A stretch of 29,298 bases of DNA, taken from a virus. The number at the start of each line of letters is the position of its first letter. Position 1 is the first letter of the stretch. Made by a program: the position numbers and the translations under genes. Below the pieces are notes generated by a model that did not search any database, was not told where the DNA came from, and saw only the letters and a program-made list of their open reading frames with translations. Location: positions 1 to 29,298 of IMG/VR virus record IMGVR_UViG_3300047994_000606; one strand, 5' to 3'. Of the stretch, positions 2,297 through 20,715 are shown one piece after another.

Positions 2297-2333
2297 GAAA
2301 CTGTTCCTCATTGCCCGCAATCCGGAGTGTTCT

Positions 2334-2348: not shown

Positions 2349-2388
2349 GGAGCACCAGCCAGCTTCGCCAATCGCCCGCGCAACCCTA

Positions 2389-2417: not shown

Positions 2418-2429
2418 ATGCTCATGCCT

Positions 2430-2444
2430 GAAACCAAATCTAAC
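2430..2444. promoter_or_regulatory. Candidate repressor operator 3 (one conserved half)
   Basis: GAAACCAAATCTAAC keeps the right arm CTAAC seen in operator 1 but has a degenerate left arm. It lies just downstream of the expected transcription start and ends right before the Shine-Dalgarno of the first early gene. It could be a weak third site; spacing between site starts is 66 and 30 bases. Confidence 0.3.
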
Positions 2445-2455
2445 AGGAGTGCGAT

Positions 2456-3033: not shown

Positions 3034-3542
3034 CGCATTCCGCGCAGAGCCGTTATCCACAAGGCCGCATGGCCGTATCCGCCCTGTCCCCCACGCCGGC
3101 GGTGCTCGTGGTCGATGCCGAATATGTGATCTACAGGCTGGAAGAAGCCGGCCGCACTTTGCTGGCACTCCCGCATTCAGGATTCTCCACCCGCCTGCGG
3201 ACCAGTCGCCACGACATCGTGCAGGCGGCAGCCGAGGCCTATGGCTGGTCAAACGTCGATGCGAGACTGAGGCCCGCAATCCCCTCCGGCGCTCAGATCA
3301 CCCGCATGGACGAAGCGCTGGACTGGATCCCCCTCATCCCGGTCGATCGCTACGTCATCCGACGCATCGTCGGCAGCCGCGCCCTGATCAGCCCGATCAC
3401 GGAACGCCATCTGTTTCCCTGGCGCCGCCTCGGTGCCCTCCTGGGTGCTGACCACAAGGCCATCCAACGCTGGCATGCGCAGGGTATCGATCTCCTGGTC
3501 GCCGCCATCAACCGGCAACACAACAAGCACCGGGTCGCGTGA
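3030..3542 (+). CDS. DUF6362 family protein with C-terminal helix-turn-helix-like region
   Basis: The 170-residue protein starts at the ATG overlapping the previous stop (ATGA). Hallmarks of DUF6362, a family common in alphaproteobacterial prophages, are visible: RLEEAGRTLLALP (residues 38-50), a DIVQAAAEAYGW segment, RPAIPSGAQITRMDEALDWI (about 88-107), then PWRRLGALLGADHKAIQRW near 130-150, which looks like a helix-turn-helix. The family has no established function that I know of. In this prophage it is the last sizeable gene before the packaging genes and no other small terminase is recognised, so a DNA-recognition role in packaging or transcription is possible. The family call is by pattern recognition; the function is inference. 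Confidence 0.7.
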   Translation: MTHSAQSRYPQGRMAVSALSPTPAVLVVDAEYVIYRLEEAGRTLLALPHSGFSTRLRTSRHDIVQAAAEAYGWSNVDARLRPAIPSGAQITRMDEALDWIPLIPVDRYVIRRIVGSRALISPITERHLFPWRRLGALLGADHKAIQRWHAQGIDLLVAAINRQHNKHRVA

Positions 3543-3663
3543 AGCCTTGCAATCTGCAGGACTCTCTGCAGATCGAGAGGGCATTAACAAGAAATCAATG
3601 TCTTACCGTTGGCATACCCGGTGCAGGCCCGAACACGGTTCCGCTTGCACAGGAGAAGCCGTC

Positions 3664-3759
3664 ATGAATGCCATGTTCGAAGCCGCCTATCGTCTCAGCG
3701 CCGCCATTGCGATCGCGTCGATCGCGGCCTTGGTGGTCGTGGCGCTGACGGGTGGCTGA
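3664..3759 (+). CDS. 31-residue single-span membrane peptide
   Basis: A short ORF (MNAMFEAAYRLSAAIAIASI...) with a good Shine-Dalgarno (AGGAGA) 7 bases upstream of ATG 3664. Residues 11-28 form one uninterrupted hydrophobic helix (LSAAIAIASIAALVVVAL), ending in TGG. It could be a small membrane effector, for example for superinfection exclusion or an accessory to lysis, but no family is recognised. It is separated from the DUF6362 gene by 121 bases that contain no other ORF, only a CTGCAG-6-CTGCAG repeat near 3550. The terminator-like hairpin at 3767 follows directly. Confidence 0.45.
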   Translation: MNAMFEAAYRLSAAIAIASIAALVVVALTGG

Positions 3760-3766
3760 AACGCCA

Positions 3767-3791
3767 GGGCCAGGGGGGCATCTCCTGGCCC
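3767..3791. terminator. Hairpin between convergent genes (terminator-like, no T-run)
   Basis: A perfect 8-bp inverted repeat, GGGCCAGG (3767-3774) and CCTGGCCC (3784-3791), with a 9-base loop, lies between the plus-strand membrane peptide (stop 3759) and the minus-strand rlpA-like gene (stop at 3823). The location fits a bidirectional terminator. There is no run of T on either side, so intrinsic termination would be weak; it may instead protect transcript ends or need Rho. Confidence 0.4.
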
Positions 3792-3822
3792 GCCGTTCCT
3801 GCAAGGCGCCACGCGAAGGCCG

Positions 3823-4539
3823 CTACAGCGGCGTCAGCGTCACCATCGCAACGCCACGCTCCAGAATGCCGAGCTGCGCCGCCGCCTCACGTGACAGATC
3901 GATGATGCGGGTCCGCGTTCCCGGACGGTCATTGATCAGAACGATCACCGAGCGCGCACTGTTGTCATGCAACGTCACACGCACCCGCGTTCCTATCGGA
4001 AGTGTCGCGTGGGCCGCGGTCAACTCGCCTTGATTGTAACGCGTGCCCGAGGTCGTGCGGTGACCCTGCCACTTTGCACCGCCATACCAGGATGCAATCC
4101 CGGTCTGCTGCCACGTCGCCAGACTGCCGCTCTCGCGCCACATCGTGCCGTCATCGATCAGTGCTGAACCATGACTCGATGTCCGGTGCACAGGACGCGA
4201 GGCACCAAGCGCCGCCGCCGGAACAATCCGTGCCCGCGTCGCCCCGCGGGGCGCCTGGCTGGCAGCCGGCCTGGTCACTGCCGCCATATGATGCTCTGAA
4301 CCCTGCCGCGCTGCAGGTGGGTCCTGCCGTACCACGATCGAACGCCCTGCCGCCGTCTTCGGCGCTGCACCCTTGGCCATCTTACGCACAGCCGCCGCCT
4401 TGGGCGGAGCGTGCGCCGCCTTGCTGGCACGGGCCGCTTCGGTCGGAACCTGCGCAAACGCAGGATGGGCCAACACCGGCGCCGTCAACATCAGCGACAT
4501 CACCATGCCCGGGAATGCCCTTCTGGCACGTGCGATCAT
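3823..4539 (-). CDS. Exported RlpA-like double-psi beta-barrel protein
   Basis: The 238-residue protein opens with a Sec signal peptide (RARR, then hydrophobic GMVMSLMLTAPVLA, likely cleaved after AFA near residue 29) with no lipobox cysteine. An Ala/Lys/Pro-rich linker follows, then the RlpA/DPBB domain at about residues 145-238: GIASWYGGAKWQG, TTSGTRYNQGELTAAHATLP, IVLINDRPGT and RIIDLSREAAAQLG. RlpA proteins are septal lytic transglycosylases acting on peptide-free glycan in the periplasm. Here the usual TANGE/TASGE motif reads TTSGT, so the Glu is Thr, and NDRGPY is NDRPGT; activity is therefore uncertain. No SPOR domain is present. The Shine-Dalgarno GGAG lies 5 bases before the ATG. The gene is inverted between early and late operons, typical of a moron, but it could also be a captured host gene. 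Confidence 0.8.
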   Translation of the reverse strand: MIARARRAFPGMVMSLMLTAPVLAHPAFAQVPTEAARASKAAHAPPKAAAVRKMAKGAAPKTAAGRSIVVRQDPPAARQGSEHHMAAVTRPAASQAPRGATRARIVPAAALGASRPVHRTSSHGSALIDDGTMWRESGSLATWQQTGIASWYGGAKWQGHRTTSGTRYNQGELTAAHATLPIGTRVRVTLHDNSARSVIVLINDRPGTRTRIIDLSREAAAQLGILERGVAMVTLTPL

Positions 4540-5121: not shown

Positions 5122-6507
5122 TTGTCGCAGGAAAGCCTGCCGGCAGCGCCGCCGCTGTCGCTCGTCGCGTGGGCCGAACGGGCTCTTGAACCAATCGGCC
5201 AGTCTCCCGCCGCCGTCCACCGTCGGATCCTCACCGAACTCGAACGCCTCGCGGAAGGACAGACCGATCGGCTGATGCTGCTGCTGCCCCCCGGTCACGC
5301 CAAGTCAACCTATGCCTCGGTCCTGTTTCCGGCCTGGTGGTTCACCCGCCATCCCGCCAGTTCCGTCATAACCGCCTGTCACACCGCCGATCTCGCCGAA
5401 CATTTCGCCCGCCAGGTCCGCGCCCTGGTGACGGACCAAACCGACCTTCTCGGCTATGGCCTCGCCAAGACCGACCGCGCCACGGCCCGCTGGCGCACCA
5501 CGAGCAGAGGTGACTATTTCGCCTCCGGCGTCCGCGGCCCCATCACGGGCCGCAGGGCCGACCTGATTCTGATCGACGACCCGATCAAGTCCCACACCGA
5601 GGCCGACAGCCCTGGTGCCCGCGACGCTCTTTGGAACTGGTACAGGTCAGACCTTACCACCCGCCTGAAGCCGGGCGGCCGGATTGTTCTGATCATGACA
5701 AGATGGCACGAGGACGATCTCGGCGGCCGCCTTATCGACGCCGACCCAAGCTGGCACGTCCTGCGCCTCCCCGCACTGGCCGAACCGGACGACCCGATGG
5801 GCCGTGCCCCCGGAGACGCCCTGTGGCCGGAATGGGAAAGCGCCGAAGCACTCTTACGCAGGCGGCAATCCGTCGGCCAGCGCGTCTGGCAGGCGCTCTA
5901 CCAGCAAAATCCCGGGCCTGACAGCAACGCCCTCTTTCTCACCACCCGCATCCACGTCACCGAGCCTGAAGCCCTCCCCACCGGCACCAGAGAGGTCCGC
6001 GCCTGGGATCTCGCGGCCACCCTTCCCGGAGAAGGTCGTGACCCCGACTGGACCGTCGGCATCAAACTTGCGCGCCTCGCCACCGGCCGCATCCTCGTCA
6101 CCGACATCGTCCGCCTCCGCGCGGGCCCGGCCGAGGTCGCGGACATGATCGTCGCCACAGCCAGCCAGGATGGCGCCGCCGTCCTGATCGGTCTGCCCCA
6201 GGATCCCGGCCAGGCCGGCAAACAGCAGGTCGCCTGGCTCACCCAACGCCTTGCCGGCTACCGCGTTCGCGCCTCACCCGAATCCGGCTCCAAGCTCACC
6301 CGCGCCACACCGGCCGCAGCCCAGGTCGAAGCGGGCCAGGTCAGCCTGTATCGCGCTCTCTGGAACCGCGGCTTCATCGACGAACTCAGGGACTTCCCCA
6401 ACGGCCGCAAGGACGACCAGGTCGATGCCCTGAGCCGCGGCATCGCCCTGCTTGGCGAAACCACCACACAACCCCGTCGTCTCAACGTTCCCTACCTGGA
6501 GCGATAG
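5122..6507 (+). CDS. Phage terminase large subunit
   Basis: The 461-residue packaging motor cuts concatemeric DNA and pumps it through the portal using ATP. The ATPase half shows Walker A PPGHAKST (residues 56-63), Walker B LILIDDP (148-154) and the coupling segment RIVLIMTRWHEDD (187-199). The nuclease half shows the RNase H-like acidic residues in RAWDLAAT (Asp296), QDPGQAGK (Asp361) and KDDQVDALS (Asp431/432/435), so both activities look intact. The length fits the family. The start is a TTG at 5122, chosen because AGGGGAG ends 8 bases before it and no upstream ATG is available near the conserved start. It opens the late operon, 20 bases before the portal gene. A recognisable small subunit gene is not adjacent. 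Confidence 0.93.
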   Translation: MSQESLPAAPPLSLVAWAERALEPIGQSPAAVHRRILTELERLAEGQTDRLMLLLPPGHAKSTYASVLFPAWWFTRHPASSVITACHTADLAEHFARQVRALVTDQTDLLGYGLAKTDRATARWRTTSRGDYFASGVRGPITGRRADLILIDDPIKSHTEADSPGARDALWNWYRSDLTTRLKPGGRIVLIMTRWHEDDLGGRLIDADPSWHVLRLPALAEPDDPMGRAPGDALWPEWESAEALLRRRQSVGQRVWQALYQQNPGPDSNALFLTTRIHVTEPEALPTGTREVRAWDLAATLPGEGRDPDWTVGIKLARLATGRILVTDIVRLRAGPAEVADMIVATASQDGAAVLIGLPQDPGQAGKQQVAWLTQRLAGYRVRASPESGSKLTRATPAAAQVEAGQVSLYRALWNRGFIDELRDFPNGRKDDQVDALSRGIALLGETTTQPRRLNVPYLER

Positions 6508-6527
6508 ACAGAAACAGGCGAGACCGC

Positions 6528-7928
6528 ATGTTCGAAACGATCGCAGGACTCATCCCGCCCGACCCCGACTATCCCCCTCGCGTCGCACGTCTGAATCTCC
6601 TCAAGCGCGCCCTCGACGGCACCCTCTACGACGCGCTGCCATACGCATTTGCCGACGAACGTACCGGCGCCGGCGACTACATCCCGTTACGGCAACGGCG
6701 CCCCTCCGTCCGCTACCCCCTCGCCAAAACGGTCGTCGACGACAGCATCTCCCTCGTCTTCGGCGATGGACACTTCCCCACCATCGACAGCGACAACGTC
6801 AAGGTCCGCGCCATCCTCGTAGACATTGTAACCGAAACGAAGCTCAATGCCGTCATGCAGGAGGCAGCCCTGCGCGGCTCCATCGGCTCGGTGGCCATCC
6901 TGCTGCGCGTCCTCAAGGGCCGTATCTTCCTCAAGGTGCTGGAAACCCTCTCCCTCGCTCCGGTCTGGGACCCCGAGGAGCCGGATCGTCTCGAAAGTGT
7001 GACGGAACGCTACAAGGTTCCCGGCACCACCCTGGCCGCCATGGGCTACGACATCGACGACCCGCAGACCCAGCACTGGTTCATGCGCGGCTGGGACACC
7101 GACCAGGAAACCTGGTACCTGCCCTGGCCGGTCACCAGCGACACTCCACCGCAGATCGACGAACGCCGCACCACCCGCCACGGCCTCGGCTTCGTCCCCA
7201 TCGTCTGGATCCGCAATCTCCCCGGCGGCCCGGACGGCCCGGACGGCATCGACGGCGCCTGCACCTTCCGCGCCGCGCTGGAGACCAGCATCGAGATCGA
7301 CTACCAGCTGAGCCAGGCCGGCCGTGGTCTGAAATACAGCTCAGACCCCACACTCCTCATCCGCGAACCCGCCGCCGACAGCCGCGAACTCGTCCGCGGC
7401 GGCGGCAACGCGCTTGTCGTCAGCGAACACGGAGACGCGCGATTGCTTGAGATCAACGGCACCGCCGCCGGCGCCGTCATCGACTATGTCCGCGCCCTGC
7501 GCGAAATGGCCCTGGAGAGCATCCACGGCAACCGCGCCAGCGCCGATCGCCTCTCCGCAGCCCAATCCGGTCGCGCCCTCGAAATGATGCACCAGGGCCT
7601 CGTCCTGCTCGCGGACAACCTGCGCATCAGCTACGGCGCAGGACTGCTTGAGCTGGCCCGCATGATCCTGCAGGCCAGTCAAACCTACCGGCTGACCGTT
7701 CTTGGTTCTCAGATCGATCCGATCGACCCGGGCACCCGCCTCAGCCTCGTCTGGCCACGCTGGTTCGCGCCCACCGCCGAGGACCGTTCTGCGGACGCGA
7801 CCACGCTGGCCACCCTCACCAATGCCCATCTGCTCTCGCCCGAGACCGCCCTGCGCAGTGTCGCCGACGTCTACAACGTCACCGACATCGCCCTCGAGCG
7901 AGCCCGCATCAAAACGGAGCAAGCATGA
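6528..7928 (+). CDS. Portal protein (SPP1 gp6-like)
   Basis: The 466-residue protein would form the dodecameric DNA gate at one capsid vertex, contacting terminase during packaging and the neck afterwards. The segment VRYPLAKTVVDDSISLVFGDG (residues about 60-80) resembles the N-terminal crown/wing region of SPP1-type portals. The central VPIVWIRNLPGGPDGPDGI and the helical stem region before NRASADRLSAAQSGRALEMM (about 330-350) are characteristic of the family, as is the closing ETALRSVADVYNVTD region. Position right after the terminase and before scaffold and capsid supports the call. The stop overlaps the next start (ATGA). Confidence 0.85.
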   Translation: MFETIAGLIPPDPDYPPRVARLNLLKRALDGTLYDALPYAFADERTGAGDYIPLRQRRPSVRYPLAKTVVDDSISLVFGDGHFPTIDSDNVKVRAILVDIVTETKLNAVMQEAALRGSIGSVAILLRVLKGRIFLKVLETLSLAPVWDPEEPDRLESVTERYKVPGTTLAAMGYDIDDPQTQHWFMRGWDTDQETWYLPWPVTSDTPPQIDERRTTRHGLGFVPIVWIRNLPGGPDGPDGIDGACTFRAALETSIEIDYQLSQAGRGLKYSSDPTLLIREPAADSRELVRGGGNALVVSEHGDARLLEINGTAAGAVIDYVRALREMALESIHGNRASADRLSAAQSGRALEMMHQGLVLLADNLRISYGAGLLELARMILQASQTYRLTVLGSQIDPIDPGTRLSLVWPRWFAPTAEDRSADATTLATLTNAHLLSPETALRSVADVYNVTDIALERARIKTEQA

Positions 7929-8308
7929 CCGACGAAGTCCAACCGCAAGGCGAAGACCCCAAGGTGACGGAGCTCGAACGCCGCCTCGCCGAACTCGAAG
8001 CCGCAACCCAACAGCGCGTCCTCCACGCCGAGCTGCGCTCTCATGCCACCCGCGCCGGGATGGTCGATCTTGACGGCCTGAAGCTGCTCGACACCTCCGC
8101 CCTCAAGCTCACCGAAGCCGGCGAGCTGGAAGGCGGCGCCAAGCTGATGTCCGATCTGCGCCGCGCCAAACCCTGGCTGTTCCAGTCGGCAAGCTCATCG
8201 AGCCCTGCCGCACCGCCACCCAACCGTCCGCAGCCGGTCAGGCGCGCCACCGAGATGAGCCACGCCGAATGGCGCGCCGCCCGTGCCGAGCTGCTGCGCC
8301 GGCGCTGA
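7925..8308 (+). CDS. Scaffold-like capsid assembly protein
   Basis: A 127-residue acidic-then-basic protein overlapping the portal stop by ATGA. Residues 12-35 form a charged coiled-coil-like helix (KVTELERRLAELEAATQQR), a Pro/Ser-rich hinge follows at about 82-100, and a short basic C-terminal helix (SHAEWRAARAELLRRR) closes the protein. A helical rod with a basic C-terminal capsid-binding tail matches small phage scaffolding proteins, and the location between portal and capsid is the usual one. At 127 residues it is small for a scaffold, and no protease domain is attached. Assigned by architecture and position only. Confidence 0.55.
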   Translation: MTDEVQPQGEDPKVTELERRLAELEAATQQRVLHAELRSHATRAGMVDLDGLKLLDTSALKLTEAGELEGGAKLMSDLRRAKPWLFQSASSSSPAAPPPNRPQPVRRATEMSHAEWRAARAELLRRR

Positions 8309-8411
8309 GCCGACGCAACACTAGCAACACCCGAGCCTCGCCCTCCTTCCTTCCCTGGCCTTCGCCCCGCGGCAGCGGGCGAGGACGGCCGCCTCCACAA
8401 GGACCAGCACC

Positions 8412-9734
8412 ATGGGTATCCAGAACTTCCCCGCCGCTCTCCAGCCCATCATCCAGCAGGGCTTCCTGGAGCGCGAATTCCAGGCCTCGCTCGAATCCCG
8501 CCTCGGCTACCGCATGTGCGCCGACCGCCAGGAATTCGCCGTCGGTATCGGTGAAACCCTCACCAAGACCCGCGCCGGTCTGAAGCCGTCCGTCACCACG
8601 CCCAGCGCACCGGCCACCAACACCAACCTCGACAACGGGCTCACCCCGGCCACCTTCGGTGTCGAACAGTTCACGATCACACTGAACCACTACGCCGCGA
8701 CCACCGACCTCAACATCGTCACTTCCCGCGTCGGCATCGCCTCGCAGTTCCTGCTCAACGCCGCCATCAATGGCGAACAGGCTGCCCGCAGCCTTGATGA
8801 ACTCGCCCGCAACGCCCTGTTCAACCCGTATTTCGGCGGCAACACCCGCGTTCGCACCACGCTGGCATCTGCCGGGCCCGCGGTTGCGGTGGATGACATC
8901 CGCGGCTTCCAGACGGTCTTCGTCAACGGCGTGCAGACCACCGTCGGCGGCAGCGCCTCGCTCTCCACGGCCGTGGGCAGCAACTCCTACACTCTGATCG
9001 GCGCGACGGCGGACACGGTGAATGTCAGCACCGCACCCAACGGCGTGTCAGGCGTGCTCACCTTCAGCACGTCCGTGACGATGGCCGACGCCACCGCCGG
9101 CAACACCGTCACCGCGACCACGGCCAGCGCGATCATGCGTCCCAACGGCCGCGGCAACACGCTCGCCCTGCAGTCGACGGACGTGCTGACCATGGCCACC
9201 CTGCTCAACGCCGTCGCCCAGCTCCGCCTCAACGCCGTCCCCGAGATCGATGGCGTCTACAATTGCTATCTCGATCCTGTGAGCGCCCGCCAGCTCTTCG
9301 CCGACAACGATTTCCGCCAGTTATTCCAGGGGGCCACCTCGGCCAACCAGGTGTTCAAAAAGGGCATGATCAACGACTTCCTCGGCCTGCGCTTCATCCC
9401 CACCACCGAGGCCTATGTCCAGGCCCATCCCAGCATCACCGGTGCCGTCATTCGCCGGCCGATCATCGTGGGGCAGGGCGCCCTCATCGAAGGCGACTTC
9501 GCCGGCATGATCGAAGCCGATGTGGCGCCGGACGACAGTCTGATCTCCCTCGTCGACGGCATCGCCATGGTCACCCGCGAACCGATCGACCGCCTGCAGC
9601 AGATCATCGCCCAGAGCTGGTACTGGATCGGCGGATTCTGCGCCCCGTCCGACACCACCACCAGCCCAACCACCGTCTCCACGGCAACCAACGCTGCCTA
9701 CAAGCGCGCCGTCATGGTCGAGCACATCGGCTGA
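8412..9734 (+). CDS. Major capsid protein (HK97-fold type, with inserted domain)
   Basis: The 440-residue protein follows the scaffold-like gene. The N-terminal arm (GIQNFPAALQPIIQQGFLEREFQ) leads into a region with DLNIVTSRVGIASQFLLNAAINGEQAARSLDELARNAL, the spine-helix type segment. Residues about 160-255 are Thr/Ser/Val-rich and look like an inserted beta domain (TTVGGSASLSTAVGSNSYTL). The axial-domain-like part (NCYLDPVSARQLFADNDFRQLF, then GLRFIPTTEAYVQ and the VGQGALIEGDFAG stretch) resembles coat proteins of the N4 gp56/P22-like groups. Family placement within HK97-fold proteins is uncertain, but the capsid role is well supported by order. A GC-rich hairpin with a bulge (8362-8382) lies in the 103-base gap upstream and could tune capsid expression. 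Confidence 0.82.
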   Translation: MGIQNFPAALQPIIQQGFLEREFQASLESRLGYRMCADRQEFAVGIGETLTKTRAGLKPSVTTPSAPATNTNLDNGLTPATFGVEQFTITLNHYAATTDLNIVTSRVGIASQFLLNAAINGEQAARSLDELARNALFNPYFGGNTRVRTTLASAGPAVAVDDIRGFQTVFVNGVQTTVGGSASLSTAVGSNSYTLIGATADTVNVSTAPNGVSGVLTFSTSVTMADATAGNTVTATTASAIMRPNGRGNTLALQSTDVLTMATLLNAVAQLRLNAVPEIDGVYNCYLDPVSARQLFADNDFRQLFQGATSANQVFKKGMINDFLGLRFIPTTEAYVQAHPSITGAVIRRPIIVGQGALIEGDFAGMIEADVAPDDSLISLVDGIAMVTREPIDRLQQIIAQSWYWIGGFCAPSDTTTSPTTVSTATNAAYKRAVMVEHIG

Positions 9735-12101: not shown

Positions 12102-13673
12102 ATGCCGATCGTCCAGCAAGGCAACATCAACACCACCGCCCTGGTGGTGCCCGACCTCTACGTCCAGATTGTCCCGCCGCAGAACCTCGTCCTCAACGGT
12201 GTTCCCACCAACGTCCTCGGCGTCGTCGGAACCGCGAGCTGGGGGCCGGTCGGCCAGCCGGTCATCCTTGCCACGATGTCCGACTACGCCAGCAACTTCG
12301 GCCCGGTCATGCCCCGCAAATACGACATGGGCACAGCCGTTGCCGCCGCGGTCCAGCAGGGGGCGAGCAACTTCCGCTGCGTGCGTGCCACCGACGGCAC
12401 GGATACGGCCGCCAGCATGATTCTGCCCGGCACCAGCTTCCTGCTCGTCGGCCTCTACACCGGCAGCCTGGGCAACCAGATCGTCGTCACACTCGCGCCC
12501 GGCAGCAAGACCAGCACCTGGCGACTCACGGTGAGCCTGCCCGGCCTGCAGCCCGAGGTGTTCGACAACATTGCAGGCACCGGCTCGCAGTTCTGGATCA
12601 ACCTCGCTGCCGCCGTCAACGTCGGCACCGGCGCGCAGCGCGGCCCGAGCCAGCTCGTGGTCGCCACCTCCGGCGGCACCTCTGTGGCTCCCTCCGCCCA
12701 GACCGCCGCCTTCTCCCTCGGCAACCCCGGCACCGACGGCGCCACCAGCGTCGCCACCACCACGCTCGTCGGTGTCGATGTCATGCCCCGCAAGGGCATG
12801 TACGCCCTGCGTGGTCAGGGCTGCTCCATCGCCCTTCTCGCTGACGGCGACGATGCCACGCAATGGACCACCCAGGCTGGTTTCGGCCTGTCCGAGGGCA
12901 TCTATATGATTCTTGTATCGCCCTCCGGCGACACCATTGCCGACGTCGTCGCCGTCAAGCAGGCCGTGGGCCTGGACAGCTACGCCGCCAAGCTGATGTT
13001 CGGCGACTGGATCTGGTGGAACGACCAGATCAATGGCGTCCTGCGCCTCATCAGTCCCCAGGGCTTCGTCGCAGGACGCCTTGCCAACCTGTCGCCGGAG
13101 CAATCGAGTCTCAACAAGCCGCTCTACGGCGTCGTCGGCAGCCAGAAATCCGGCGCGCCGGGTTCCGGCCAGAGCACCAGCTATTCATCGGCCGAACTCG
13201 CGGTCCTGCTCGGCGGCGGTGTCGACGTCATCGCCAACCCCCAGCCCGGCGGGGCGTTCTGGGGTGTACGCGGCGGCCACAACAGCAGCTCCAGTTCGGC
13301 CACCAACGGCGACAACTACACCCGGCTGACCAACTATATCGCCGCCACCCTCGCCGCCGGCATGGGGCAATATGTCGGCCAGGTCATCAATGCCGCGCTG
13401 TTCCGCCGCATCCGCGCCACCCAGCTGAGTTTTCTGCAGGCCATGCTCGGCCAGAGGCTCCTCGGCAGCACCGACGGCAAGCTGCCGTTCAGCGTCATCT
13501 GCGACACCACCAACAACCCCGCCAGCCGCACCGGCCTCGGATATGTCCAGTCCGACGCGCAGATCCGCTACCAGGCGATCAACGAGAAATTCATCGTCAA
13601 CATGGAGGGCGGCCAGACCGTCCAGGTCCAGCGCCAGACCCTGCCCGGCGCCCCCGGCGCGCTGACTGCTTAA
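12102..13673 (+). CDS. Contractile tail sheath protein
   Basis: The 523-residue protein is the sheath that surrounds the tube and contracts on infection. The N-terminus (MPIVQQGNINTTALVVPDLYVQIVPPQ) and the LGVVGTASWGPVGQPVILATMSDYASNFGP segment (about residues 38-68) are typical of sheath proteins, as is the C-terminal core with RIRATQLSFLQAMLGQRL, LPFSVICDTTNNP and the 'FIVNMEGGQTVQVQRQ' ending that forms the inner ring contacting neighbouring subunits. The length is normal. AAGGAGG precedes the ATG by 8 bases. Its presence establishes a contractile (myovirus) tail. Confidence 0.93.
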   Translation: MPIVQQGNINTTALVVPDLYVQIVPPQNLVLNGVPTNVLGVVGTASWGPVGQPVILATMSDYASNFGPVMPRKYDMGTAVAAAVQQGASNFRCVRATDGTDTAASMILPGTSFLLVGLYTGSLGNQIVVTLAPGSKTSTWRLTVSLPGLQPEVFDNIAGTGSQFWINLAAAVNVGTGAQRGPSQLVVATSGGTSVAPSAQTAAFSLGNPGTDGATSVATTTLVGVDVMPRKGMYALRGQGCSIALLADGDDATQWTTQAGFGLSEGIYMILVSPSGDTIADVVAVKQAVGLDSYAAKLMFGDWIWWNDQINGVLRLISPQGFVAGRLANLSPEQSSLNKPLYGVVGSQKSGAPGSGQSTSYSSAELAVLLGGGVDVIANPQPGGAFWGVRGGHNSSSSSATNGDNYTRLTNYIAATLAAGMGQYVGQVINAALFRRIRATQLSFLQAMLGQRLLGSTDGKLPFSVICDTTNNPASRTGLGYVQSDAQIRYQAINEKFIVNMEGGQTVQVQRQTLPGAPGALTA

Positions 13674-13700: not shown

Positions 13701-14129
13701 ATGACCAGCAGCGCCTTCTCCGTCGGCCGCGACTGCCAGCTCGTCGTCATGGGCCCGTTCGGCCGCATCGACCTCACCCACACCACCGGCTTCGAAAGCC
13801 ACCAGCTCACCACCCCCATCCGCATCGACCGCATCGACGGCACCCAGCTCGGGGCTGAACTGCCCAAGGGCTGGGAAGGCAGCTTCGAGCTGGAACGCGG
13901 CAGCTCCAGTGTCGATGACTTCATCGCCCAGACCGAAGCCGCCTACCTCTCCGGCACGGCCGTCCCCACCGGCACGCTCTACCAATACGTGCAGGAGGTC
14001 GACGGCAGCACCAGCACCTACCAATACAGCGGCGTCGTCTTCAAACTCGCCCAGGCCGGCACCTGGCGCGGCGACCAGAGCGTCAAGCAGAAGCTCGACT
14101 TCTTCGCCACCACCCGCGTGCGCGTCTGA
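13701..14129 (+). CDS. Tail tube protein
   Basis: The 142-residue protein directly follows the sheath and has the size and beta-rich profile of contractile tail tube subunits. The sequence shows GPFGRIDLTHTTGFESHQLTTPIRI, then an 'AELPKGWEGSFELERGSSSVDDFIAQTEAAYLSG' region with the tube-type central helix, and a C-terminal sheet VFKLAQAGTWRGDQSVKQKLDFFA. Strong AAGGAGA precedes the ATG. Its TGA shares one base with the start of the chaperone gene, so the two are translationally coupled. Confidence 0.85.
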   Translation: MTSSAFSVGRDCQLVVMGPFGRIDLTHTTGFESHQLTTPIRIDRIDGTQLGAELPKGWEGSFELERGSSSVDDFIAQTEAAYLSGTAVPTGTLYQYVQEVDGSTSTYQYSGVVFKLAQAGTWRGDQSVKQKLDFFATTRVRV

Positions 14130-14470
14130 TGTCCTCGCCGTCCGCCCGCCTGATCGCCGCCGCCGAAGCAGCCCCCACCGCCACTGACAGCCAGGGCCGC
14201 CGCCTGTCGCTGCGTCGCCTCACGGCGCTCGACAAGCTGCGTCTGTTCAAGGCGGCCGGCCCGGCCCTGGCGCAGAACCATCTCTGGCTCGGCATGGCCA
14301 CTCTGGCCTGCTCGGTCACCGCCATCGACGACATCCCGGTCCCGCCCCCGGTCAACGAGGCACAGATCGAGGCCCTGGTCGGACGCCTCGGCGATCACGG
14401 CATCAACGCCATCGCCCGCGCGCTGACGCCCCCAGAACCGCTTGATGTGGCAACCCACGCGGGAAACTGA
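14129..14470 (+). CDS. Tail assembly chaperone, short form (gpG-like)
   Basis: The 113-residue protein starts at ATG 14129, overlapping the tube stop, and terminates at TGA 14468-14470. The central part (RRLSLRRLTALDKLRLFKAAGPALAQNHLWLGMATLACSVTAIDDIP, then EAQIEALVGRLGDHGINAIARAL) resembles chaperones that coat the tape measure during tail assembly. The stop codon directly follows a GGGAAAC slippery heptamer in the correct frame, and the -1 frame continues open for 57 codons, which identifies this as the unshifted G partner of a G/GT pair. It is not expected to be present in mature particles. Confidence 0.85.
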   Translation: MSSPSARLIAAAEAAPTATDSQGRRLSLRRLTALDKLRLFKAAGPALAQNHLWLGMATLACSVTAIDDIPVPPPVNEAQIEALVGRLGDHGINAIARALTPPEPLDVATHAGN

Positions 14471-14640
14471 GCCGGCACCCCGATCTGGTCGACAGTCTGT
14501 ATCTGTGCCGGAACGGGGTGCCGTTCGACGTCGCCTTCTCCCTTCCGCCCGAAGATCGCCTGGCCTGGGTGATCGCCCTCGGCCAGCTCGACGGCGGCGC
14601 GTTCGATTTCTCCTCGATGACCTGGAAGGAACGGCCATGA
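14129..14640 (+). CDS. Tail assembly chaperone, long form made by -1 ribosomal frameshift (gpGT-like)
   Basis: After residue 113 (Asn, from AAC at 14465-14467) a -1 slip makes the ribosome read from 14467 in the new frame: LSRHPDLVDSLYLCRNGVPF..., ending WKERP at TGA 14638-14640. The fusion would be 170 residues. The T extension is helical with a conserved-looking FDVAFSLPPEDRLAWVIALG segment, a typical size for T domains, and has no start codon of its own: upstream in that frame is a TGA at 14443. In lambda the T part recruits the tube protein while G coats the tape measure. The T stop overlaps the start of the next gene (ATGA at 14637-14640), so that gene is coupled to the shifted product only. 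Confidence 0.8.
14461..14467 (+). other. -1 ribosomal frameshift slippery site GGGAAAC
   Basis: The heptamer G GGA AAC fits X XXY YYZ exactly, in the frame of the chaperone gene (GCG-GGA-AAC-TGA), and is followed at once by the stop codon. Slippage re-pairs the two tRNAs on GGG and AAA. The only window in which a shift could join the two frames is 14446-14470, and this is the only good slippery site in it. Closely related to the lambda G/T site (GGGAAAG). Confidence 0.88.
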
Positions 14641-14999
14641 CCCTGTCCGACCTCGTCCTGCATCTCCAGTCGCTCGATCTCGACAGCATCGCGCGCGCCA
14701 CCCTCGACGAACAGGCACAGCGCCTGTGCGACCTCGCGCAGGAGGCGCTCGACGTCCTGCCCGGTGGCCAGCACGACCATCCCTGGCGCCGCACCGGCAC
14801 GCTGCACGACAGTGTCTCCGCCCAGGCCGAGGGCGACGAGGCCTGCATCGGCAGCACGTCACCGATCGCCCTTTACCAGGAGCACGGCACCGCCGCGCTC
14901 CCACCCCGCCCCACCTTCGGCCCGCTCGCCGCCGCCGAGGGTGAGGCCGTCGCCCGGTCCATCGCCGACCGCCTCATGTCAGCCCTCAGGAGCCAATGA
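14637..14999 (+). CDS. HK97 gp10-like/virion morphogenesis-type tail protein
   Basis: The 120-residue protein has a helical N-terminal half and a C-terminal pattern WRRTGTLHDSVSAQ ... IALYQEHGTAALPPRPTFGPLAAAEGEAV, which follows the 'tG.L..S ... YA.fvE.GT...P.RPFl.PA' signature of HK97-gp10 and Mu gpG-like tail completion proteins. These proteins usually act at the neck and are encoded between the connectors and the tube; here the gene lies after the tail chaperone. ATG 14637 overlaps the stop of the frameshifted chaperone, and its own TGA overlaps the next start. Confidence 0.6.
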   Translation: MTLSDLVLHLQSLDLDSIARATLDEQAQRLCDLAQEALDVLPGGQHDHPWRRTGTLHDSVSAQAEGDEACIGSTSPIALYQEHGTAALPPRPTFGPLAAAEGEAVARSIADRLMSALRSQ

Positions 15000-16006
15000 T
15001 GGACGACGCCTATGTCATCGGCATTCGCCTGGCGCTGGACAACGGCGTCAGCGCCGGCGTCGCCGCCATCGGCCGGGAGCTTGCAGCGCTCGACACGCAG
15101 ATCGCCGGCACCGCCGCCAACCTGCAGCGCCTCTCCGAGATCGCTGCGTCAGCCACCGCCGCAGCCGCAGGCGATCTTGCCCGCCTGACGCGCGAGCCAA
15201 ACGGCAGGCCGCCGACACCGTCTGTCCACGCGGACCCGCCTCCCGCCAATATCGCCCCGCCACCACCACGCCCATCGCCCGAACGGGAGCCCACCGCCCG
15301 TGCACCCGCCCCCCAGGCTCCAGCACCGCAGCCACCGAGCATCGCACGTCGCACGGAGGCCGCCATCGCGGCCCCAAGCCAACCCGGCCCCGCCGCATCA
15401 TCCTCCGTCTTGCAGTCGCTGACATCAACGGCCGCACCCGAACGCCCACGCGCGCCAACCATCGCCTCAGGCGCTCCAGCCGAGCCGTCGCCTCCGGTCG
15501 CACCATCCGCGCCCGCCCCAGCGTCACCGCCCCCGCCCGCACTATCCGCGCCCACTGCGGCGTCACCGCCGCCAGTGATCCGTATCCTCCCGCCAACCGA
15601 CCAACCGACGGCGCCCCAGCTCCTGCCGCCTGTCACACCGCTGCCTGTATCGGCACCAGGCGAGCGGCCGACGCCGTTCTCACCCCATACCCGCGATCGG
15701 GCCGTTCAGCTTCCGGCCATGCCGGGCTCAGCCGCCCCACCATGTCCGCAGCGCACCAGCGCGGAGACGCTCGCCGACCGCAGGCCGCTGGCCACGGCGC
15801 CCGCCCAGACGCTTCCCTCCGTCGCCCCCCAGTCCCCCGGCTCTGCCAGCCCGCCCACGAGCGGCGACGTTTATCTCGACGGCACCCGCCTCGGCACCTG
15901 GATGACCAATCACCTCGCCCGTGAGGCGAGCCGCCCGCCCTCGGGCGCCACCGGCTTCGACCCCCGCATGAGCATCGCCTGGCCCGGCGCCCAGCAAGGA
16001 GGCTGA
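14999..16006 (+). CDS. Proline-rich protein in the tape-measure position (short tape measure candidate)
   Basis: A 335-residue protein. Two ATGs occur (14996 and 14999); the second is preferred because AGGAG lies 6 bases before it against 3 for the first. Residues 1-66 are helical and alanine-rich (VSAGVAAIGRELAALDTQIAGTAANLQRLSEIAAS). Residues about 67-293 contain roughly 65 prolines, more than a quarter of positions, mixed with Ala, Ser and Thr. The C-terminal 43 residues regain complexity: GDVYLDGTRLGTWMTNHLA, then SGATGFDPRMSIAWPG. The slot between chaperone and baseplate U/X/D genes is normally filled by the tape measure, usually 600-1000 residues and helical. No other candidate exists. 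If it is the tape measure, it is very short and chemically unusual. Alternatively it is a minor tail or baseplate-plug protein. Confidence 0.55.
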   Translation: MDDAYVIGIRLALDNGVSAGVAAIGRELAALDTQIAGTAANLQRLSEIAASATAAAAGDLARLTREPNGRPPTPSVHADPPPANIAPPPPRPSPEREPTARAPAPQAPAPQPPSIARRTEAAIAAPSQPGPAASSSVLQSLTSTAAPERPRAPTIASGAPAEPSPPVAPSAPAPASPPPPALSAPTAASPPPVIRILPPTDQPTAPQLLPPVTPLPVSAPGERPTPFSPHTRDRAVQLPAMPGSAAPPCPQRTSAETLADRRPLATAPAQTLPSVAPQSPGSASPPTSGDVYLDGTRLGTWMTNHLAREASRPPSGATGFDPRMSIAWPGAQQGG

Positions 16007-16009
16007 CCC

Positions 16010-16708
16010 TTGTCCTATTCCTACCTTCTGCTTGGCCCCATTCTGTTCCAGGACTTCGAGCTGCCCCCCTCCGTCAGCTGGGGCGGTGCCCAGTCGCTCA
16101 CCGTCCACAAGCTCCCCGGCGGCACCCGCATCATCGACTCCATGGGCCGCGACGATTCCGAAATCACCTGGGCCGGTGTCTTCTCCGGCGGCGACGCCGG
16201 ACTGCGCGCCCGCGCGGTCGACCTCATGCGCGCCGACGGCGGTCTCTGGCCGCTCACCTGGGAAACCTTCTTCTACAGGGTGGTCGTGTCCCGCTTCGAA
16301 GCCGACTACCGCCGTCCCAACTGGATCCCCTACCGCATCACCTGCACCGTGCTGCGTGACGAGGCGGAAGCCGACGTCGAGGCCGCCCTGTCCATCGGCG
16401 CCTCCGTTCTGGCGGACCTGACCGCCGCCGACGATCTGGGCACCGGCGTCGATCTGACCTCCGCCACCGGGGCAAGCGCCGCCACCGGCGCCACTACACT
16501 CGGCACCTCCGCCTACGCCCAGGCCCAGTCCCAGCTCGCCGCCGCGACCGCTGCGACCTCCACCCAGCTCGCCACCACCGGCACGCAGCTGACAGCCGCC
16601 ACCGATCTCGGCCAGGCCACCACCCTCGCCGGCCAGGCCGCTCTGCTCGCCACGGCCCAGGGCTACCTGGGCCGCGCCGCCATCAACCTCGCCAACGCCA
16701 GCAGCTGA
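16010..16708 (+). CDS. P2 gpU-like tail/baseplate protein
   Basis: The 232-residue protein begins at TTG 16010, 3 bases after the preceding stop, with GGAGG in the end of the previous gene as its ribosome binding site. Residues 1-118 resemble the P2 gpU family: LGPILFQDFELPPSVSWGGAQSLTVHKLPGG, DSEITWAGVFSGGDAGLRARAVDLMRADGGLWPLTW, then a strand pair and PYRITCTVLRDE. The remaining 115 residues are an Ala/Thr-rich, helical, low-complexity tail (ATAATSTQLATTGTQLTAATDLGQ) not found in P2 gpU. The order U-X-D that follows supports the call. The extended tail may contact the tape measure or hub. Confidence 0.7.
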   Translation: MSYSYLLLGPILFQDFELPPSVSWGGAQSLTVHKLPGGTRIIDSMGRDDSEITWAGVFSGGDAGLRARAVDLMRADGGLWPLTWETFFYRVVVSRFEADYRRPNWIPYRITCTVLRDEAEADVEAALSIGASVLADLTAADDLGTGVDLTSATGASAATGATTLGTSAYAQAQSQLAAATAATSTQLATTGTQLTAATDLGQATTLAGQAALLATAQGYLGRAAINLANASS

Positions 16709-16719
16709 GGAACGGCACG

Positions 16720-16905
16720 ATGCAAAGCACCACCACCGTCGGCGGCACCCTGTTCCACGTCGCGGCAAGCCAGCTGAACGACGCCACGCAATGGATCCGC
16801 ATCGCCCAGCTCAACAACCTCTCCGACCCGATGCTGACCGGTCTCGTCGCCCTCAAACTGCCGGACCCCGACCCCAATGCAGGAGGTGGTATTGCCAGCC
16901 AATAG
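16720..16905 (+). CDS. P2 gpX-like LysM-type tail protein
   Basis: The 61-residue protein (TVGGTLFHVAASQLNDATQWIRIAQLNNLSDPMLTGLVALKLPDP) has the size and LysM-like pattern of tail protein X, which links the tube to the baseplate hub. GAGGAA precedes ATG 16720. It sits directly between the gpU-like and gpD-like genes, as in P2. Its end overlaps the beginning of the gpD-like gene. Confidence 0.75.
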   Translation: MQSTTTVGGTLFHVAASQLNDATQWIRIAQLNNLSDPMLTGLVALKLPDPDPNAGGGIASQ

Positions 16906-18019
16906 CACCAGCCTTCGCACCCCACGCCTGCTGGTGATGGCCAACGGCACCGCCATGCCCGCACCGCTCAGCGCCGACATCTTCAGCAACAACCACAGCG
17001 CCGCCGACCGCTTCCGCGTGACCGCCCACCTGACGGCCACCGACCTCGCCACCTGGTCCGCCACGGCAGACGCTCTGCTCGACATCCAGGTCTCGCTCGA
17101 CGGCCAGAGCTGGACCAGCCTCATCCAGGGAGAGGTCGACCAGCTTCAGATCGACCCCCGCACCATGCGCCTCACCCTCGAAGGCCGCGACCTCACCGCC
17201 CGTCTGATCGAGACCCGCACCCAGGAAACCTTCGCCAACCAGACCAGCAGTCAAATTGCCCAGACCCTGGCCACCCGCCACAGCCTCACCGCCGACGTCG
17301 CCGCGACCACGACCCCCGTGGGCGTCTACTGGCAACTCGAACACGACCACATCACGCTGGACAGCTTCAGCCGTTCCATCTCGGAATGGGACCTGCTCGT
17401 CACCCTCGCCGGACACGAAGGCTTCGACGTCTGGGTCTCCGGCACCACCCTGCATTTTCGCCCGCCGCCGACAACCCTCGATGCCACTGCCGTCCTGCAG
17501 CTCGTCGCATCGGTCGACAGCCCGGCCAATCTGATCTCTCTCCAGCTCGACCGGGCGTTGACCCTCACCCGCGACATCGAGGTCGTCGTGAAAAGCTGGA
17601 ACAGCCGCCAGGCGCAGTCCTTCACCCAGACCGCCCGCGCCACCCGAAGCGCCGGCACGGGTAGACCGTCCAACGGCAAGCCGCAGCGCTATGTCTACGT
17701 CGTCCCCAACCTCACGCCGGACGCCGCCCTCAAGCTCGCCCAGACCCGCCTCACCGAACTCACCCGCCACGAACGCGTCATCCACGCCGAAATGCCTGGC
17801 GAACTGACCCTCACCCCCCGCCAGCAGATCCTGCTGCAGGGCACCGGCACCGATTTCGACCAGCCCTACTGGATCGATGAAATCACCCGTCGCATCAGCT
17901 TCAGCAACGGCTTCACCCAGTCGCTGCGCGCCCGCAACGCCAGCACCTCCAGCCAGGCCACATCCCCAACCGCCCCCATCGGCACCGGCAGCGGAGGTGC
18001 CCCATGGAACGGTTTCTGA
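16892..18019 (+). CDS. P2 gpD-like baseplate hub protein (late control D family)
   Basis: A 375-residue hub protein of the gp27/gpD type that joins the tube to the central spike. The sequence includes the barrel-domain segments FRVTAHLTATDLATWSATADALLDIQVSLDG and GEVDQLQIDPRTMRLTLEGRDLTARLIETRTQE, then SEWDLLVTLAGHEGFDVWVSGTTLHF and the C-terminal MPGELTLTPRQQILLQGTGTDFDQPYWIDEITRRIS, all typical of this family. I choose TTG 16892 because AGGAGG lies 5 bases before it; an in-frame ATG at 16877 lies before that site and has no ribosome binding site of its own. The gene overlaps gpX by 14 bases and the spike gene by 16 bases. Confidence 0.82.
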   Translation: MPANSTSLRTPRLLVMANGTAMPAPLSADIFSNNHSAADRFRVTAHLTATDLATWSATADALLDIQVSLDGQSWTSLIQGEVDQLQIDPRTMRLTLEGRDLTARLIETRTQETFANQTSSQIAQTLATRHSLTADVAATTTPVGVYWQLEHDHITLDSFSRSISEWDLLVTLAGHEGFDVWVSGTTLHFRPPPTTLDATAVLQLVASVDSPANLISLQLDRALTLTRDIEVVVKSWNSRQAQSFTQTARATRSAGTGRPSNGKPQRYVYVVPNLTPDAALKLAQTRLTELTRHERVIHAEMPGELTLTPRQQILLQGTGTDFDQPYWIDEITRRISFSNGFTQSLRARNASTSSQATSPTAPIGTGSGGAPWNGF

Positions 18020-18555
18020 ACGCCCTGAAGGCCCAGTCCGGCGCGCAGGATCGCGCCACCGGGCAGCCGCGCTTTGCCACCGTCAGCAGCGTCGACCCCT
18101 CCCGCCCAGCGGCACGCGTCCTGCTGCAGCCCGAAGGAGTGCTCTCCGGCTGGCTTCCCATTCTGAGTGCATGGGTCGGCGCCGGCTGGGGCCTGTCCTG
18201 CCCGCCTTCCCCTGGCGACCAGGTCCTGGTGCTGCCCCAGGAAGGCCAGTCCGAACACGGTGTCATCATCGGCCGCGCCTGGTCCGACAGCGCCAGAACC
18301 CCTGCCGCCCCCACCGGCGAGCTCTGGCTCGTCCACCAGTCCGGCGCCTTCCTGAAACTGACCAATGACGGAATGATCCACCTGCAAGGCAACACCACGC
18401 TGGCCGGCAATCTCACCGTCACCGGAACCATCTCCGCCACCGGAGACGTCAGCGACGGCGTCGGCGCCCTGTCCCGCCTGCGCGGTCACTACGACAGCCA
18501 CACCCACACCGACTCCCGCGGCGGCACCACCTCCACCACCAGCCAGCCCGATTAG
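18004..18555 (+). CDS. Baseplate assembly protein V (central spike)
   Basis: The 183-residue spike protein has an N-terminal OB-fold region (residues about 20-95: FATVSSVDPSRPAARVLLQPEG ... PGDQVLVLPQEGQSEHGVIIGRAW), a short beta-helix stalk made of alternating Thr/Gly strands (LQGNTTLAGNLTVTGTISATGDVS, about 127-150), and a C-terminal tip with His-Thr-His at 166-168 (HYDSHTHTD). In P2 gpV and phi92 gp138 an HxH motif at the tip binds an iron ion that sharpens the membrane-piercing point. A GGAGGT site inside the end of the gpD-like gene drives translation. It is followed by the W, J and I genes. Confidence 0.88.
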   Translation: MERFLNALKAQSGAQDRATGQPRFATVSSVDPSRPAARVLLQPEGVLSGWLPILSAWVGAGWGLSCPPSPGDQVLVLPQEGQSEHGVIIGRAWSDSARTPAAPTGELWLVHQSGAFLKLTNDGMIHLQGNTTLAGNLTVTGTISATGDVSDGVGALSRLRGHYDSHTHTDSRGGTTSTTSQPD

Positions 18556-18563
18556 GAGCTTCG

Positions 18564-18935
18564 ATGGCCGACCTCTTCCACAGCTTCGGCTCAGATCTGG
18601 TGACATCCCCCACCGGCGACCTCGCCGCCGCCGCGGGCCCCACGCTCGGCCAACAGCGCGTCCTCAAGCGCCTGCTCACCAACCCCGGCGACTACATCTG
18701 GCAGCTCGACTACGGCGCCGGTCTCGCCCAGTTCGTGGGACAGCCCGCCGCGGTCGATCAGATCCGCGCCACCATCCGCGGTCAGATCTTCAAGGAAGCA
18801 GCAGTCGCCCGGACGCCCGAACCGACGATCGACGTCAGCTTCGACCAGACCGGCACCGTCTATGTCCATGTCCGCTACGCCGACGCCGGCACCGGCCAGA
18901 CCCAGCTCCTCTCCTTCTCGGCGGGAACCTCGTAG
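18564..18935 (+). CDS. Baseplate wedge protein W (gp25-like)
   Basis: The 123-residue protein carries the gp25/gpW signature: SDLVTSPTGDLAAAAGPTLGQQRVLKRLLTNPGDYIWQLDYGAGLAQFVGQ, then an IRATIRGQIFKE helix and a final beta-sheet (IDVSFDQTGTVYVHVRYADAG). gp25-like proteins nucleate sheath assembly at the baseplate; the conserved EPR-type motif is represented only loosely (RTPEPTIDV). AGGAG precedes ATG 18564. The J gene starts at the very next base after the stop. Confidence 0.85.
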   Translation: MADLFHSFGSDLVTSPTGDLAAAAGPTLGQQRVLKRLLTNPGDYIWQLDYGAGLAQFVGQPAAVDQIRATIRGQIFKEAAVARTPEPTIDVSFDQTGTVYVHVRYADAGTGQTQLLSFSAGTS

Positions 18936-20060
18936 ATGCAGCTCCAGCTCCAGAATTTCTCCACCCTCGTCAGCAACGCGGCCGCAGCCGTTCAAGGCTC
19001 CGCGCGCCAGCTGCTGGACCTGACCGTCGGAAGCACCCTGCGCGCCATCCTGGAGGCCAACGCCGCCATCGGCCTGTGGATGCAGTGGCTGATCCTGCAG
19101 GTGCTCGCCACCACAAGGGCTGCCACGAGCACCGGCACCGATCTCGACACCTGGACGGCCGATTTCTCCCTTGCACGGCTGCCGGCGTCTCCGGCCACCG
19201 GCCAGGCCACCTTCAGCCGTTTCACTCCCGCCACAGCGGCGCTGATCCAGGCCGGCGTCTCCGTTCGAACGTCTGACGGCAGCCAGACCTTCACGGTCGG
19301 CACCGACACCACCAACCCCGCCTGGAACGCCACCTCGGCCGGCTACACGCTCGGTTCCGGTGTCGCCAGCATCATCCTGCCGATCACCGCAACGACTCCA
19401 GGAGCGGCTGGCAACGTCCAGGCCGGCGCCATCACCTTGCTCGCCACCGCCATCCCCGGGATCGACATGGTCACCAACGCGGCCCCGCTCGCGGGTGGTC
19501 TGGATGCCGAAGGCGATACCGCGCTGCGCACCCGCTTCTCGAGCTATCTCGACAGCCGTGCCCGTGCCACCCCGCTCGCGATCGGCGCGGCCATCCTGTC
19601 GGTTCGACAGGGCCTGAACTACACGCTGCAGGAAAACCTGACGCCCACCGGCACCACAAGCATGGGATGCTTCGTCGTCACCGTCGATGACGGCTCCGGA
19701 GCTCCCTCGGCTGCGCTGCTCGCCAGCGTCGCCGCGGCGGTTGAGGCCATGCGCCCGATCGGCAGCCTCTACACGATCCAACCGCCCACGGTGGTGATCG
19801 CCAACGTCTCGATGGCGATCACCACGGCACCGACTGCCATGCACACCACCATCGCTGCCAACGTCGCCCGGAGCCTGACCACGGCGCTCAACACGCTCAC
19901 CCTCGGGGCCCCGCTCCCCTACACCCGCCTCGCCCAACTCGCCTACGCGGCCGATCCCAACGTCACCAACGTCACCGCCCTCACGCTGAATGGCGGCACG
20001 CTGGATCTCACCCCCAACGCCGCCAGCCTCATCAAGGCCGGCACCATTCAGGTGAACTGA
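18936..20060 (+). CDS. Baseplate J-like protein (gp47 family)
   Basis: The 374-residue wedge protein shows the Baseplate_J pattern: an N-terminal helical part (LLDLTVGSTLRAILEANAAIGLWMQWLILQVLATTRAATSTGTDLDTWTADFSLAR), then a beta-rich region with FTVGTDTTNPAWNA and IILPITATTPGAAGNVQAGAITLLA, followed by GGLDAEGDTALRTRFSSYLDSRARATPLAIGAAI, the family's most recognisable block (about residues 185-220). The C-terminal domain resembles other J proteins (VSMAITTAPTAMHTTIAANVARSLTTALNTL). It forms the arm of the wedge with I. The length is normal. Confidence 0.9.
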   Translation: MQLQLQNFSTLVSNAAAAVQGSARQLLDLTVGSTLRAILEANAAIGLWMQWLILQVLATTRAATSTGTDLDTWTADFSLARLPASPATGQATFSRFTPATAALIQAGVSVRTSDGSQTFTVGTDTTNPAWNATSAGYTLGSGVASIILPITATTPGAAGNVQAGAITLLATAIPGIDMVTNAAPLAGGLDAEGDTALRTRFSSYLDSRARATPLAIGAAILSVRQGLNYTLQENLTPTGTTSMGCFVVTVDDGSGAPSAALLASVAAAVEAMRPIGSLYTIQPPTVVIANVSMAITTAPTAMHTTIAANVARSLTTALNTLTLGAPLPYTRLAQLAYAADPNVTNVTALTLNGGTLDLTPNAASLIKAGTIQVN

Positions 20061-20061
20061 C

Positions 20062-20715
20062 ATGACCGGTGATCCCTCGGACATGCTGGCCCGCCTCAAG
20101 GCCACACTCCCGCGCAGCTGGTTCGCCGACACCACACCCATTCTCGATGGGGTACTTGCGGGTCTTGCCAATGCCTGGTCCTGGCTCCACGCAGCGCTGA
20201 CCTACACCGTGGCCCAGACGCGCATCGCCACCGCGACCGACAGCTTCCTCGATCAGATCGCCGCCGATTTCTTCGGCACGCGCCTGCTCCGCCTGCCCGC
20301 CGAGCCCGACGGGGCCTACCGCACCCGTATCAGCCGAGAACTCCTGCGCGAGCGCGGCACCCGCCACGCCGTCATCCAGGTGCTGCAGGACCTCACCGGC
20401 CGCACGCCGATCGTCTTCGAGCCCAGCCGCCCAGCCGACACCGGCGCCTGGGGCGGCCCGCTCGGCTACGGCATGGCCGGCGGCTGGGGCAGCCTGATGC
20501 TGCCCTATCAGTGCTTCGTCACCGCCTACCGCGCGCAGGGCGGCGGCATCGCCAACGTTGCCGGCTACGACGGCCCCGCCGGCTACGGTGCCGGCGCCAT
20601 CCAGTACGCCAGTCTCTCGATGCTGACCGGCACCGTCACCGACCAGCAGATCAACGCGGCCATCGCCCGCGTCATGCCGGTCTCGACCATCGCCTGGACC
20701 AGCATCTCCAACTGA
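20062..20715 (+). CDS. Baseplate/tail protein I-like (gp48-type) wedge protein
   Basis: The 217-residue protein follows J, as I does in P2. It starts MTGDPSDMLARLKATLPRSWFADTTPILDGVLAGLANAWSWLHAALTY, typical of Mu gp48/P2 gpI-related proteins, and includes DSFLDQIAADFFGTRLLRLP and DGAYRTRISRELLRERGTRHAVIQVLQDLTGR (residues about 85-115). The C-terminal half is Gly/Tyr-rich (GGPLGYGMAGGWGSLMLPYQCFV) and probably forms the platform for receptor-binding proteins. Confidence 0.75.
   Translation: MTGDPSDMLARLKATLPRSWFADTTPILDGVLAGLANAWSWLHAALTYTVAQTRIATATDSFLDQIAADFFGTRLLRLPAEPDGAYRTRISRELLRERGTRHAVIQVLQDLTGRTPIVFEPSRPADTGAWGGPLGYGMAGGWGSLMLPYQCFVTAYRAQGGGIANVAGYDGPAGYGAGAIQYASLSMLTGTVTDQQINAAIARVMPVSTIAWTSISN

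Follow-up and report, generated by a model that had tools for sequence, protein, structure and literature searches.

A short, proline-rich candidate tape measure protein with a predicted disordered centre in a probably domesticated contractile-tail gene cluster of Acetobacteraceae

The window analysed here is an entire IMG/VR record of 29,298 bases. It carries structural genes of a contractile-tailed particle in the order terminase, portal, scaffold, capsid, sheath, tube, chaperone G/GT, neck-like protein, tape measure, gpU-like protein, LysM protein, hub, spike, W, J, I and tail fibres. The features are as follows, each with its strand and the family matches that support it.

1952..4539, conserved left border as a whole
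1952-2641, minus strand, XRE-type repressor (PF01381)
within 2487-3542, plus strand, DUF6362 protein (PF19889)
3823-4539, minus strand, RlpA-like lytic transglycosylase (PF03330)
5122..9734, plus strand, head module as a whole (PF06810 in addition to the matches below)
5122-6507, plus strand, terminase large subunit (phrog_38, E=4e-94)
6528-7928, plus strand, portal (phrog_64, E=4e-13)
7925-8308, plus strand, scaffold (phrog_4866)
8412-9734, plus strand, major capsid protein (phrog_1357, E=1e-34)
12102..13673, plus strand, tail sheath (phrog_23, E=1.5e-45)
13701..14129, plus strand, tail tube, assigned by its position after the sheath (phrog_12993, a family of unknown function, E=6e-40)
14129..14470, plus strand, tail assembly chaperone, G product, 113 aa (phrog_20383, E=4e-21; weak match to phrog_508, tail assembly chaperone)
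14461..14470, plus strand, −1 slippery site GGGAAAC with the TGA of G after it; in the −1 frame, the GT extension reaches about 14635
14637..14999, plus strand, tail completion/Neck1 (HK97 gp10-like) protein, 120 aa (phrog_5, E=2e-7; PF04883 just under the cut-off)
14999..16006, plus strand, short tape measure protein, 335 aa, an intact ORF whose stop codon ends at 16006; helical N-terminus (residues 1-65), proline-rich disordered centre (about 66-288) and conserved C-terminal domain (289-335)
16010..16708, plus strand, gpU/DNA-circularisation-N-like tail protein, 232 aa (phrog_21362, E=2e-41)
16720..16905, plus strand, LysM-like tail protein X (phrog_28233, phrog_975)
16877..18019, plus strand, baseplate hub, gpD-like (phrog_52, E=7e-29)
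18004..18555, plus strand, baseplate spike with gpV-like OB domain (PF04717, E=4e-9; phrog_6142)
18564..20715, plus strand, baseplate wedge genes W, J and I
18564-18935, plus strand, baseplate wedge W, by position and conservation
18936-20060, plus strand, baseplate wedge J (phrog_6, E=3e-43)
20062-20715, plus strand, baseplate wedge I (phrog_26379 and baseplate families)

The myophage structural module is otherwise complete, and the ORF at 14999-16006 is the sole candidate for its tape measure. A conventional long tape measure elsewhere, which the original prediction had named as a finding that would count against it, was sought, but the window encodes none; the two long ORFs further downstream (22772-25330 and 25402-28689) have their matches in tail fibre or spike families. 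The neck-like gene between chaperone and tape measure is an addition to the gene list of that prediction, and a Neck1-like gene went undetected in many distant relatives of the cluster. The slip site and the following stop are present in the chaperone gene of 62 of 64 relatives, in the forms GGGAAAC, AAAAAAC or CCCAAAC.

Inspection of the ORF and a count of its prolines confirmed the initial description of a protein of 335 residues with about 65 prolines in its centre. Specifically, the centre enclosed by the conserved ends has 239 residues, 65 of them prolines (27%), and its longest proline-free run is at most 17 residues. An alternative ATG at 14996 would give 336 aa. The terminal sequence, GFDPRMSIAWPG, matches the one quoted earlier, and the C-terminal domain carries the motif GDVYLDG...GFDPR..AWPG. 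An ORF in an overlapping frame (14764-15924) was discarded because relatives conserve and constrain the ends in the frame of 14999-16006.

A search with the tape measure sequence itself returned a single relative. Since this is due to the unconserved centre, relatives were sought through the adjoining gpU gene; with the gpU-like protein as query, we recovered 12 viral loci at first and, in further searches, 22 loci from genomes and 56 from viruses. Most of them encode, in the slot or a few genes upstream, a short protein that shares both ends with the window protein. We ran profiles of the first 50 and the last ~50 residues on all frames of all loci and obtained 60 distinct complete short tape measures of 263-419 aa (median 326). 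The cultured Limobrevibacterium gyesilva RN2-1 (L022) carries a 294-aa form. In an alignment of 32 sequences, the N-terminal part (49 residues) and the C-terminal part (47 residues) show mean identities of 51% and 60%, respectively, and are nearly constant in length, while the centre is 29% identical and 171-323 residues long. Its proline content is 15-31% across the 32 relatives, with very short proline-free runs. In chromosomal relatives at greater distance, the slot protein is ~290-350 aa long, contains the C-terminal domain and has only 5-13% proline. The short, disordered-centre tape measure is a trait of the lineage and not an oddity of the window. The length that had been called unusual is indeed short, but it is not peculiar to this locus.

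Two genomes, G143 and G356, have an empty slot. A loss of the tape measure was considered and rejected, as an ORF of 268-273 aa that carries the C-terminal motif described above follows the lysis genes (regions L183-L184 and L197-L198). It lies ~10 kb downstream of the slot, at ~37 kb in the joined stretches. The tape-measure gene there appears to have been relocated, and the short form persists despite the move. A similar ORF in G227 runs off the edge of the region examined. At two further loci (L025, 8885-9985; L099, 264-2241) the N- and C-terminal parts lie in different frames, reflecting a frameshift in the centre, either genuine or introduced by mis-sequencing of GC-rich DNA. Two contigs from one metagenome, the end of L002 and the start of L005, both break within the proline-rich centre, probably as an assembly break.

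AlphaFold2, run with the 32-sequence alignment, predicts an N-terminal helix at residues 3-65 (pLDDT up to 92) and a C-terminal helix at residues 295-311, and leaves residues 66-294 without structure. The mean pLDDT of 62.7 is low, as expected of a largely disordered chain. Most dN/dS values of the closest pairs fall at 0.02-0.3 for the N- and C-terminal ends and at 0.3-0.66 for the centre. In every pair examined, prolines are retained more often than the other residues of the centre, and the proline content of the centre is uncorrelated with the GC content of the locus (r=0.05, 32 relatives), so base composition does not account for the proline richness.

The usual picture of a tape measure is a long α-helix. 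The window protein alone has no match in PHROG or Pfam family searches, and a fold search with it returned nothing useful. The N-terminal profile, built from the short proteins only, matches three longer proteins, L074 (850 aa, E=4e-9), L067 (537 aa, E=5e-6) and L082 (659 aa, E=2e-5); L074 and L082, and also Komagataeibacter phage phiKX1, match PHROG tape-measure families. Longer homologues, for which a search had been proposed at the outset, thus exist at 537-850 aa. In addition, the C-terminal profile matches the ends of the otherwise conventional L075 and L086 proteins. These matches indicate that the short form has its ends in common with long tape measures and differs from them in the middle.

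The tape-measure reading of the original prediction is supported by the slot between the tail assembly chaperone and the distal tail genes, by the frameshifting chaperone upstream, by the helical ends around a low-complexity centre, and by sequence homology that runs through the N-terminal profile to L074 and L082 and not through the window protein directly. A predominantly α-helical rod, which is typical of tape measures without being strictly defining, is absent; because helices are predicted only at the ends, we file the protein as a variant of the tape measure family and not as a typical member. Taken together, the sequence comparisons identify the ORF as a reduced tape measure in which a predicted disordered chain replaces the long middle.

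The same slot between chaperone and gpU-like gene holds the tape measures of L074 (850 aa), phiKX1 and phiKX2 (742 aa) and Brevibacillus phage Emery (gp16, 999 aa). An N-terminus like that of the short family is recognised in L074 by profile and in phiKX1 and Emery by eye only, and the C-terminal motif recurs in phiKX1 and its relatives. These proteins are, however, two to three times longer, and their long central domains are not proline-rich (3-6% proline in the whole proteins). L074, a 149.8-kb viral contig, combines its 850-aa tape measure with the same N-terminus, a chaperone slip site and a gpU neighbour, and large phages of this kind possibly represent the long-form ancestor type. In a tree of sheath proteins, the short or long label requires five changes, at least two of them forced by well-supported branches, and phiKX2 stands beside a chromosomal element with a short tape measure. 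The tape measure has probably been shortened or lengthened on more than one occasion.

Domesticated particles with a very short tape measure are not without precedent. In RcGTA, the alphaproteobacterial gene transfer agent (GTA) of Rhodobacter capsulatus, the g11 protein has ~216 residues, of which the N-terminal helix takes up 113, a part made of strands and loops 83 and the C-terminal helix 20 (PMC7296036). The likeness to the window protein, drawn from that description, lies in the length and in the N-terminal and short C-terminal helices; RcGTA differs in having a siphovirus-type tail, and a proline-rich centre is not described for g11. In the open-access literature searched, we found no described case of a proline-rich or disordered tape measure, nor of a contractile GTA in Acetobacteraceae.

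FliK and YscP are proline-rich molecular rulers of secretion needles. They share with the window protein the idea of an extended, partly proline-rich chain that measures a tube, whereas the machine and the length-switch mechanism differ.

Comparison of the window proteins with 17 genomic regions revealed that the genes from terminase to I recur as one block with an unchanged order, the capsid proteins being 53-89% identical. The cluster as a whole is compact and extends from the terminase to the lysin. The capsid protein occurs in 167 of 397 sampled Acetobacteraceae genomes (42%), usually as one copy, with two or more cluster copies in some genomes; in a sample of the class it was found in 2 of 385 genomes, both already in the Acetobacteraceae set, and in no other genome. 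An apparent pair of copies in G003 (L017/L018, CAIYCW010000145.1) was rejected as an assembly artefact, the contig being a perfect 50.8-kb palindrome. The borders in other genomes repeat the XRE repressor, DUF6362, RlpA and a muramidase-like lysin (the lysin recognised by eye). Among the matches listed (down to about 62 bits), no integrase (PF00589) lies within about 19 kb of the 17 elements. The head and tail cluster is complete, and wherever dS is unsaturated, each structural gene tested shows purifying selection (dN/dS 0.05-0.33).

Protein distances for eight element genes correlate with those for rpoB (Mantel r 0.51-0.77, p=5e-4, 14-15 genomes), which is a correlation that a phage of narrow host range would also give. 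Together with the restriction to one family, this suggests vertical inheritance without proving it, and some genomes have extra copies. The cluster thus appears to be inherited mostly vertically within Acetobacteraceae, so the word "prophage", used in the original prediction, needs care. Mostly vertical descent makes a domesticated phage, perhaps a contractile-tailed GTA, likelier than a recently acquired prophage; on this genomic evidence the cluster is probably a domesticated element and possibly acts as a contractile-tailed GTA. Acetobacteraceae-linked phage-like contigs of unknown nature have been described in peat moss (PMC12142844), and these may be the same element.

The tail that such a protein would specify can be gauged from four acetic-acid-bacterial phages that are both sequenced and imaged by TEM (PMC8566455, Table 1), all with conventional tape measures: phiAP1 (645 aa, 86.1 nm), phiKX1 (742 aa, 98.9 nm), phiKX2 (742 aa, 95.0 nm) and phiKM1 (805 aa, 104.6 nm). 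Their tails rise by 0.128-0.133 nm per residue. Two of them, phiAP1 and phiKM1, are contractile phages with acetic acid bacterial hosts, sequenced tape measures and measured tails (PMC8566455), like the window cluster in host and tail type but unlike it in having tape measures recognised by PHROGs and distant sheaths. A three-point fit, with phiKX2 left out, gives for 335 aa 44 nm through the origin and 50 nm with an intercept. A tail of ~44-50 nm is therefore likely as the default from conventional scaling, not as a measurement, and a disordered chain need not follow helix scaling. A further phage, phiAO1, departs from the calibration, with a 46.6-nm tail and a tape measure of 526 aa (0.089 nm per residue); it was considered as an example of a short tail with a short ruler and rejected because of that tape measure length.

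By analogy with established tape-measure biology, the C-terminal domain would dock in the baseplate or hub, where tail assembly starts; the chain would run up the tube lumen, held soluble by the frameshifted G/GT chaperone; and the N-terminal helix would mark the point at which the tube stops and a terminator caps it. With conserved ends and a centre free of sequence constraint, total length should set a short tail, in the range above at ~0.13 nm per residue. We are confident in the overall reading of a contractile-tail tape measure cut to two functional ends and a disordered, proline-rich linker, within a likely domesticated cluster of a lineage known here from its genes. The fuller proposal, an ancient domesticated myovirus-type GTA common to Acetobacteraceae whose tail was shortened when a disordered, proline-rich chain measuring by contour length took the place of a helical tape measure, is tentative.

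How the centre would measure is one point on which readings diverge. The original prediction offered two, a very short tail, which is the likely one, and a polyproline-II ruler; the centre is predicted to be disordered and its sequence is unconserved. With the rise of ~0.31 nm per residue of an extended polyproline-II chain, ~71 nm would be covered by the ~229 unstructured residues alone, and the tail set by the whole 335-aa protein would reach some 80 nm or more. The high proline content across the 32 relatives, the very short proline-free runs, the preferential retention of prolines and the lack of predicted helix all accord with such a ruler. Yet a disorder prediction does not demonstrate polyproline-II geometry within a tube, and the distant members, equally short with far fewer prolines, make extreme proline content unnecessary; we consider this ruler rather unlikely. 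That the protein is no ruler at all, the lumen being filled by another protein or the tail assembling without one, would explain why it has no direct match to tape-measure families, but the window holds no other candidate and the N-terminal profile matches recognised tape measures in the same slot, leaving this reading highly improbable.

Other readings concern the cluster and its history. It might be an ordinary temperate phage confined to Acetobacteraceae whose tape measure was shortened without domestication. The related phiKX1 and phiKX2 are inducible with MMC and have been imaged, phiKX2 adjoins a short-tape-measure chromosomal element in the sheath tree, and some genomes carry several copies. 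A usually single, intact copy in so large a part of the family, congruence with rpoB, flanking genes common to related genomes and the lack of a nearby integrase among the matches listed all weigh the other way, and we see the temperate phage as a real if doubtful contender. Decay in a defective prophage, with the long helical gene deleted and a remnant left drifting, could account for the fast-evolving centre of variable length and for the two loci with split frames. It is, however, scarcely credible against 60 distinct complete ORFs with strong purifying selection on both ends, adjoining structural genes that are intact and constrained, and a gene retained even after relocation.

For the reduced tape measure, nature supplies a large set of variants whose ends are fixed and whose disordered middle, free in sequence, is 171-323 residues long. 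Such a set amounts to an experiment already prepared, on the parts that a tape measure needs and on how many nanometres each residue contributes. If the cluster is a contractile-tailed GTA, it would extend from the siphovirus-type RcGTA a phenomenon best known in alphaproteobacteria, and gene exchange in acetic-acid-type bacteria would become testable.

PMC8566455 gives tails of 156 nm in its text and of 15-136 nm in its Table 1. The same table includes several unsequenced acetic acid bacterial particles with tails of 15-60 nm, of which clusters with short tape measures could be the source.
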